In this document: one piece after another, positions 2,622 through 4,712 of the stretch
Numbering within the stretch: position 1 is the stretch's first letter
How the letters are laid out: every line of letters starts with the position of its first letter
Origin: Phascolomyces articulosus
Lineage: Eukaryota > Mucoromycota > Mucoromycetes > Mucorales > Lichtheimiaceae
Length of the DNA stretch: 64,000 bases
Direction: 5' to 3'
NCBI GenBank assembly: GCA_025677815.1
Contig: JAIXMP010000017.1
Span: 186,001-250,000, forward strand
Position numbers and translations under genes: made by a program
The notes under the pieces: model-generated
What the model saw: only the letters and a program-made list of their open reading frames with translations
Databases searched by the model: none
Told to the model about the DNA's origin: nothing

Positions 2622-4712
2622 TTAACGACAATAAACAAGGACATCCCCTTGACGTCTCCAATCATCATGGAAATGACTATTAAAGAAACGGGCACATTCA
2701 TGATACCCATCATTTGTCAATAATTGTTCTATCTTCGTATCCTCCATTTCCAACAAATTTTCAAACAAAACAAGATGGGATGGCCATAGTCGATCAGGTT
2801 GACCAATCTCTTTTTCCAGAAACGAAATCGGATCTGCATAAAATCGATCCGCCTCATCCACATAATCTTTTTCGTCATGTAAAGGGGGTTCACATGTAAG
2901 GAACCACATATTCATTTTGGGTTGATGAACGATCGATTGCCAGGGCGTTGAATGACATGGCATTAATACGCCAACAGACATGGAAGGATGAGCATTTTCT
3001 CGAATCCATAACATGACATCGGTCACACCACGTTGATGCCAAAGTGATAAATAGAGTGCCATAGGTACCTGTGTTAGGAACAAGCAAATGGCCGTTAGTT
3101 TACGCCATTTTTTAGGAATACTAGATAAGCCAATGGCAGCAAAGATTAACATGAGAGGAACGACAGGGAATATAAATCGAAATTCTTTGTGGGATAAAAG
3201 GCTGTATACACAGAGAACCCATACAACAAGATGTCCTAAATATCGTGCATCACTGGCTTTTGAAGGTGTACAGCGATAGCCATAAATTGCAAGTGGAAGC
3301 ATTGTTGTTAAAATTACAGGTACACCTTGAGAGAAATACCAATGCCATGGATGAACACCATAAATCAATGAGATAGATTGTAAAACATTGATTTTAAAAA
3401 AGTTGATAGGAGTCAAAACGAGATTTTCTACATTAAATTCTCCAGCATAAATAAAAGTATCCAGAGCAATATCAGCTGCAAGAATAATCGAGCTATGAAA
3501 TAGTGTATATGTTAATTTGAATATTCTTTTTTAGTATTTTGCAAATCAAATACATATATGACTTACACAATAATAGCAGCATTTAACAATACTGTAAATC
3601 GATGACTGGATGATTGAATCACAAGTCGAAGACCAGCAAATAACCAAATCAATGCATTTGTTGGACGCATCACACATGCAAGGGATGCCCATAAAAGTGA
3701 AATGCGATAGTTCCTAATATTACAATGCAAACCAATTTTTTTAATAAATTTCTTATTTAACTTAAAATTAATAGAGAGACATACTTTATCCAGTTGCTAT
3801 CAGAGTTCTTTGTTGCAGGAGATGGCCAGTAATTCAGAGCAATCACAGTAAAGGTGGTTTCAATAGCATTTGATAAGGTGCGTGCAGCCATAAAGAAATT
3901 ATACCAGGAACATAGTGTAATAAATAACTATATTATATAAATCATCAGTTCAATTATTGACCTCCATAAAACATTATCCATTGTCCGATACAAGTAAAAA
4001 AAAAGTAAACATACAATATAAGGCGCAATGGCATTGCCTACTACGCGTTTTCCTAATGAATAGGTTGCATAATCTGTTAATGCTGCTGTACCAGCTTGAA
4101 ATAATTTAGGTGCTAAGATCTAGTCGTATTGATCATCATTAGTAACAATGTAATTGTTGATAGCCAGACTAAAAGGAATTAGATGTAACCTACCAACAAA
4201 CGTGTTTGATCCAGTTGTAACCAAGCAATTAGTTTATAGATCATAGCAAACATTATTGGATGAGCATAACTACGAATTTTAGCGGTCCATTCCCAAGTGA
4301 GATACCCGTATGTGCATAATGGTGGTTAAGGATGTACTTAAAAAAATGTAATAACTCCTCTCTCAAACACATTTTTTCATCCACATTCTATTGAAAAAGA
4401 TGGATCATCATCTTCTCAAATCATGTATATAAAAAAAGGATATCCAAACACCATGTTATGTGCAATTTCTTGTGATTGCCAATATTCATCAGGGTTATCA
4501 AAAGTACGTGTAAAATAAGCGTTGAGTAAACGAAAGACAAGACATAACGAAAACACGAAAAGTCGTGAACCTGTCGTTGATCGTTGATCGCCCTTTGTGG
4601 CAGCGGCAATTGGTTTAGTTATTTCTGGAATGGTATCAATGTCATTGTCATTGTTTTGTTTGCTGGAACTGGGGATATTACGCTTTTGTAATTTATGTTG
4701 ATCTGTTGTCAT
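2622..4712 (-). CDS. GPI10: GPI mannosyltransferase 3 (GPI10/PIG-B)
   Basis: Six exons (4712..4444, 4311..4194, 4119..4015, 3927..3785, 3713..3567, 3492..2622) total 1653 bases and encode 550 residues, the usual length for this family. The protein adds the third, alpha-1,2-linked mannose to the GPI anchor precursor in the ER membrane. Family signatures are an N-terminal FDNPDEYWQSQEIAH followed by [10 protein letters not shown], a MRPTN segment, and ISLIYGVHPWHWYFSQG near the middle, with many hydrophobic segments in between. The first intron is not GT-AG: it starts ATATCCTT and ends AC and only fits the minor spliceosome (separate entry). All other introns are GT-AG. It belongs to the GT-C glycosyltransferase superfamily with ALG9 and SMP3, but the HPWHWY motif favours PIG-B. 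Confidence 0.93.
4312..4443 (-). other. U12-type AT-AC intron in GPI10
   Basis: This 132-base intron begins ATATCCTTTT and ends in AC. A TCCTTAAC branch-site match (4332..4325) puts the branch A about 14 bases before the 3' end. Those three features are the consensus of U12-dependent introns. Removing it joins TTT GG to A TAC GGG and restores the family motif [10 protein letters not shown] in phase. No GT-AG alternative preserves the motif: the sequence before the AC acceptor has an in-frame TAA, and no GT lies at the exon end. Confidence 0.93.

Follow-up and report, generated by a model that had tools for sequence, protein, structure and literature searches.

A predicted U12-type AT-AC intron in the PIGB/GPI10 gene of the mucoralean fungus Phascolomyces articulosus, and candidate genes of the minor spliceosome

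The PIGB/GPI10 gene of Phascolomyces articulosus is predicted to contain an ancestral U12-type AT-AC intron (4443..4312, minus strand) that would be removed by the minor spliceosome, a reading to which we give a probability of about 0.96. All positions refer to the window, i.e. the whole stretch of 64,000 nucleotides that was analysed. The gene (4712..2622, minus strand; Table 1) has six exons and a predicted product of 550 residues, a GPI mannosyltransferase III. Its identity, already proposed in a first-pass annotation of this DNA, is borne out by the Pfam model PF03901, which matches the joined protein with 330.5 bits over residues 53-450, so that the domain covers both sides of intron 1. 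The same annotation had placed the host outside most of the Dikarya, in agreement with the NCBI taxonomy of P. articulosus (Mucorales, Lichtheimiaceae). Introns 2-5 are all ordinary GT-AG introns of 71-87 nt and intron 1 alone is AT-AC. The start of the protein is provisional, because in a deposited record (P0229) DQHKL is preceded by a different N-terminus, MIQQKRFNSK, the first residues of which are readable on the minus strand from 5104.

Table 1. Predicted structure of the PIGB/GPI10 gene in the window
Feature	Position	Strand	Remark
PIGB exon 1	4444..4712	-	start MTTDQ...; another start in deposited P0229
U12-type AT-AC intron 1 (predicted)	4312..4443	-	132 nt, phase 2; recovered genome-wide as G000:C20:190325-190442:-
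5' splice site ATATCCTTTT	4434..4443	-	complementary to U11 5' end (AAAAAGG) and U6atac AAAGGA
Branch site TCCTTAAC	4325..4332	-	branch A at 4326
PIGB exon 2	4194..4311	-	begins ATACGGGTATCTCACTTGGGAATGG (YGYLTWEW)
GT-AG intron 2	4120..4193	-	74 nt
PIGB exon 3	4015..4119	-	
GT-AG intron 3	3928..4014	-	87 nt
PIGB exon 4	3785..3927	-	
GT-AG intron 4	3714..3784	-	71 nt
PIGB exon 5	3567..3713	-	
GT-AG intron 5	3493..3566	-	74 nt
PIGB exon 6, stop codon included	2622..3492	-	

Intron 1 starts with ATATCCTTTTTTTATA, contains ACATCCTTAACCACC and ends with TTATGCAC at 4312. The features by which U12-type introns are usually told are present, namely a 5' site of the form (A/G)TATCCTTT, the branch site TCCTTAAC, AT-AC ends and an in-phase junction, and the last base lies 14 nt beyond the branch A (15 with the A counted), within the 10-20 nt expected between branch site and 3' splice site. 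For minor introns, a passage in PMC8199999 gives the same range, with an optimum of 11-13 nt and no pyrimidine tract; the spacer between branch site and AC is here CACCATTATGCAC, likewise without a polypyrimidine tract. The intron splits a codon (GG|A), and joining 4444 to 4311 results in an in-phase protein that matches its relatives (e.g. P0002 of Zychaea mexicana). As ATA starts both exon 2 and the intron, a cut 1-3 nt later would give the same mRNA, and never a GT-AG intron. Junctions of the GT-AG, GC-AG and AT-AC types were also enumerated for donors between 4470 and about 4340 and acceptors as far as 4280, with a minimum separation of 40 nt. Fifteen of these leave the frame open, all of them AT-AC and none GT-AG or GC-AG, and the conserved peptide is restored by 4443/4312 only.

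The coordinates, motifs and in-phase rebuild claimed by the first-pass annotation were therefore exact, and its statement that no GT-AG alternative exists holds among the 15 open-frame junctions (donors 4470 to about 4340). Full motifs, spacing and phase, all read from the sequence, likewise support its description of a textbook U12-type AT-AC intron. The pair of motifs is far from chance: a long two-motif search (TATCCTTTT, 75-135 nt, TCCTTAAC) retrieved ten sites in the 47.4-Mb genome, one of which is the PIGB intron, versus none for the reversed pattern that served as control.

The genome also holds candidate genes for much of the machinery that such an intron would require. Rfam models detect U11 (70.7 bits, cut-off 39) and U6atac (52.7 bits, cut-off 33) in the 47.4-Mb genome, together with a U4atac candidate (L032, G000:C41:366173-366296:+) whose score of 50.4 bits is below the cut-off of 53 (E-value 2.4e-6). 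This candidate and U6atac can form a perfect helix of 15 bp (GTCCTTATCAAGGGG), the longest in 1000 shuffles of U6atac being 12, although the two Rfam models are themselves largely complementary in this region, so that helix and Rfam matches partly depend on each other. In one pair of the helix the Rfam consensus lines have G (U4atac)-C (U6atac), where A-U is found here. Both U11 and U6atac are complementary to the 5' site of the intron (Table 1), these pairings having been noted without a control. As for the U11/U12-specific proteins that the first-pass annotation had proposed to look for, a PDCD7 (U11-59K) domain scored 32.4 bits against a cut-off of 27 and was aligned to positions 214-305 of the 306 in the model, but the CHHC zinc finger of U11-48K (PF05253) had no match genome-wide in a search that is blind to introns and uses a model of 25 positions.

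Four snRNA genes had been predicted from the intron, of which U11 and U6atac were found above their cut-offs and U4atac as a candidate just below, but U12 was not found. The Rfam model of U12 had no match in the genome, either at the default threshold or at E-values up to 10, which is not read as absence; at E-values up to 10, the model gave sub-cut-off matches in control genomes (7 of 14, all prokaryotes to judge by their names) and none here. An 18-base U12 motif with up to three mismatches was not enriched (176 sites versus 218 in the control), and the Rfam model had no match in the 12 loci, out of 30 cut out from such sites, to which it was applied. Similarly, a motif that combines the branch-binding sequence and the Sm site occurred 9 times (7 in the control), without an Rfam match in any of the 9 loci. 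The candidate with the best-looking motif by eye (L039) was rejected as it lies in coding-like sequence, and nine further motif loci inspected by eye contained nothing convincing.

The Rfam model may fail here because U12 is reduced in basal fungi, where a passage in PMC4133162 describes an atrophied stem III (in Lichtheimia corymbifera) and a short last stem; a U12 snRNA would be expected to exist in P. articulosus. According to the same passage, U11 and U6atac are present in Lichtheimia corymbifera, which belongs to the same family, as they are in P. articulosus, whereas U12 was found and U4atac went undetected in Lichtheimia, and it is the U4atac candidate that was found here and U12 that was not. 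The U4atac candidate would therefore fill a gap in this family. The second half of U6atac is described there as highly divergent in Lichtheimia; in P. articulosus the Rfam model leaves part of it unaligned, with 58 bases opposite 39 positions.

Introns with AT-AC ends, which are reported in PMC3033335, are not always minor introns, and the major spliceosome could act on them as U2-type AT-AC introns. The failure of the Rfam searches to find U12 in this genome would be in line with that explanation for PIGB, but the two long U12-specific motifs are matched over their full length, the spacer is without a pyrimidine tract and candidate U11, U4atac and U6atac genes are present; removal by the major spliceosome is, in our view, very improbable. 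A different explanation altogether would be that no intron is spliced and that exon 1 and the remainder are two separate genes, or a broken gene. Indeed, PIGB of P. articulosus is deposited as two proteins, P0229 (BDA99DRAFT_538410, 105 aa) and P0001 (441 aa). However, P0229 consists of exon 1 followed by PFFIYMI, which is the read-through of the intron up to the first stop, close relatives have a single joined protein (e.g. Zychaea P0002, with 71% identity over 100%) and the Pfam domain spans both parts, and we give this explanation practically no credence.

With the U12-type intron as the preferred reading, the deposited annotation is a predicted gene cut in two at its AT-AC intron, because the intron was overlooked. 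The first residue of P0001 is residue 110 of the joined protein, within exon 2, and this record is 100% identical to the joined PIGB over 80% of the query. Since the gene is deposited as two records cut at the intron, counts of minor introns that are taken from annotated introns would miss it, which makes the split PIGB a concrete case of annotation hiding minor introns. The survey PMC10639083 acknowledges that minor introns missing from annotations could introduce a bias, an effect that it argues is limited by its choice of well-aligned gene models. Several other mucoralean PIGB records that are without an N-terminus (e.g. P0003, P0004 and P0022) may be cut at the intron in the same way.

In minor splicing, the intron is recognized by U11 and U12, U4atac hands over U6atac, U6atac replaces U11, and attack by the branch site is followed by exon joining. 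For PIGB, U11 would pair first with the 5' site ATATCCTTTT and U12 with the branch site TCCTTAAC, U6atac, handed over by U4atac, would then displace U11 at ATATCC, and the branch A at 4326 would attack, with the exon beyond the AC at 4313-4312 being joined. When the frame is read on into the intron, a stop follows after 8 whole intron codons, and therefore PIGB, an enzyme of GPI anchors, would depend on the minor spliceosome.

A comparison of the intron position with other fungi and animals, also suggested in the first-pass annotation, was positive at the level of deposited protein models. It comprised 228 different PIGB proteins (from the best 120 of 931 and the best 120 of 456 matches), of which 183 have regular spacing at the site of intron 1, 23 are without the searched exon-1 motif, 7 have a downstream motif that was not matched and 15 contain an insertion at precisely this site. 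Twelve of these 15 insertions (a share that is no rate, because the searches were partly seeded with read-through sequences) have YP as their first residues, preceded by G, K or R, which is what read-through of (GG/AA/AG)ATATCCN would give (P0039, P0060, P0075, P0096, P0121, P0146, P0176, P0178, P0183, P0184, P0191 and P0198), and the remaining three do not (P0109, P0125 and P0164). The proteins with this footprint come from Rhizophagus irregularis (P0039), R. clarus (P0060), the chytrid Phlyctochytrium arcticum and vertebrates (rat, naked mole-rat, a frog, two birds and four fishes). Among the seven with an unmatched downstream motif, two Umbelopsis proteins (P0030 and P0036) have a read-through YPF after which the motif is lost, while the other five are explained by plain substitutions (three) or skip the motif (two). 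A second R. irregularis record (P0052) is correctly joined, and in a further set of three, P0229 and P0230 read through and P0231 is joined. The simplest reading is a single AT-AC intron, at the same codon and in the same phase, that probably dates back to the last ancestor shared by fungi and animals, and the footprints suggest that chytrids, Mucoromycota and vertebrates have all retained it at one codon position.

Similar introns were searched for in the rest of the genome. A short two-motif search (TATCCTTT, 20-80 nt, CCTTRAC) gave 53 sites, versus 23 for the reversed pattern and 27, 23 and 19 in simulated genomes. The loci read were 29 stretches, which contain 30 of these 53 sites and of which the initial 20 stretches had been picked by eye as most intron-like; 16 of the 30 are strict sites with both ATATCCTTTT and TCCTTAAC, versus 1, 1 and 0 for the three simulated genomes. 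Together with the ten sites of the long pair, with which they do not overlap and in nine of which the first base was not seen, this amounts to 26 strict AT-AC candidates. Thirteen of the 16 strict sites have ATCCTTAAC rather than TTCCTTAAC as their branch site. This is a likely reason why another route, a search for TTCCTTAAC followed by AC, was unproductive (139 sites versus 487 in the control, no enrichment); upstream of the 90 of those 139 sites that were examined lay 10 loose 5' sites and 3 strict ones, versus 3 and 1 in the control.

The flanks were joined for 17 candidates, i.e. the 16 strict sites and L136, and homology extends across the junction in seven of them. These are ALG6/ALG8, an importin (IBN_N), VPS11, PPME1 (with a gap of 2 residues at the junction), DCP2 and a DIS3-type exonuclease (both with alignments to solved proteins that are ungapped at the junction), and MIOS (L136), whose branch site is AACCTTAAC. 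The other ten (L135, L140, L143 with both introns, L146, L147, L149, L151, L156 and L162), with no homology across the junction above the curated cut-off, are motif-and-frame predictions; L147 has a one-sided CDC24_OB2 match and L156 a TPR_6 match that spans the junction, both below the cut-off, and the FancD2 match of L162, over the cut-off, begins just past the junction (AG acceptor). The two ATATCCTTTT...TCCTTAAC sites of L143 (G000:C56:1486173-1487108) are on the same strand, about 530 bases apart, perhaps in one gene. A candidate GT-AG intron that starts with GTATCCTTTT and has its TTCCTTAAC and AG separated by about 40 nt was also seen (L027, G000:C13, near 666264); joined as GT-AG, it gives a WAC/ACF1 domain (PF10537, 74.3 bits, residues 25-77) with the junction at residue 40.

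With the branch A counted, the distance from branch site to AC is 14-15 nt in PIGB, ALG6/8, the importin, VPS11 and PPME1. It appears to be 28 nt in the DIS3-type exonuclease (L152, C78:733038-733472) and 30 nt in DCP2 (L150, G000:C21:138724-139156), both with a T-rich spacer, and 37 nt in MIOS (C15:103177-103597), where an AG is found at 34. This spacing of 28-37 nt in three predicted sibling introns exceeds the 10-20 nt that PMC8199999 gives for minor introns; it is the least expected detail of the analysis, and is a lead rather than a result. It is possible, if rather doubtful, that 3' splice-site choice by the minor spliceosome is relaxed in this mucoralean lineage, which may accompany a reduced U12 in a particle that tolerates longer scanning; the tie between long spacing and reduced U12 is a guess. 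The 3'-terminal stem-loops of U12 and U6atac are described in PMC11039992 as bound by 65K-type proteins.

The PIGB intron is like the known U12-type AT-AC introns of animals, plants, Rhizopus, Phycomyces and Rhizophagus in ATATCCTTTT, TCCTTAAC, the AC end, the 14-15 nt and phase 2, and shows no difference from them, in contrast to its three siblings with 28-37 nt between branch site and AC. Minor introns have been described in Mucorales, and passages in PMC10639083 and PMC2846911 put their number at about 4 for Rhizopus oryzae and about 20 for Phycomyces, in agreement with what the first-pass annotation stated on Rhizopus and its relatives. The PIGB intron adds to these, in a family whose machinery was partly described before, and Lichtheimiaceae would thereby gain an AT-AC intron together with most of the machinery. 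For R. irregularis, a passage in PMC10639083 gives 205 minor introns, some at positions common to animals, whereas the 26 strict candidates of P. articulosus are motif-based and barely cover GT-AG introns; the PIGB models of R. irregularis and R. clarus have their read-through footprint at the very site of intron 1 in P. articulosus. A literature search linking PIGB to minor introns returned no relevant paper, and the gene may still be present in minor-intron databases.

Other coding regions were seen around PIGB in the window. An ORF at 8153-8728 (minus strand) has a match to NOP9-like PUF repeats below the threshold (20.1 bits, cut-off 27). The divergent neighbour of PIGB, at 6634-7010 on the plus strand, carries a pinin/SDK/memA domain (58.6 bits, with two frames joined by eye), a family that is related to splicing, and a leucine-rich-repeat ORF at 1719-2342 (plus strand) is convergent with PIGB.
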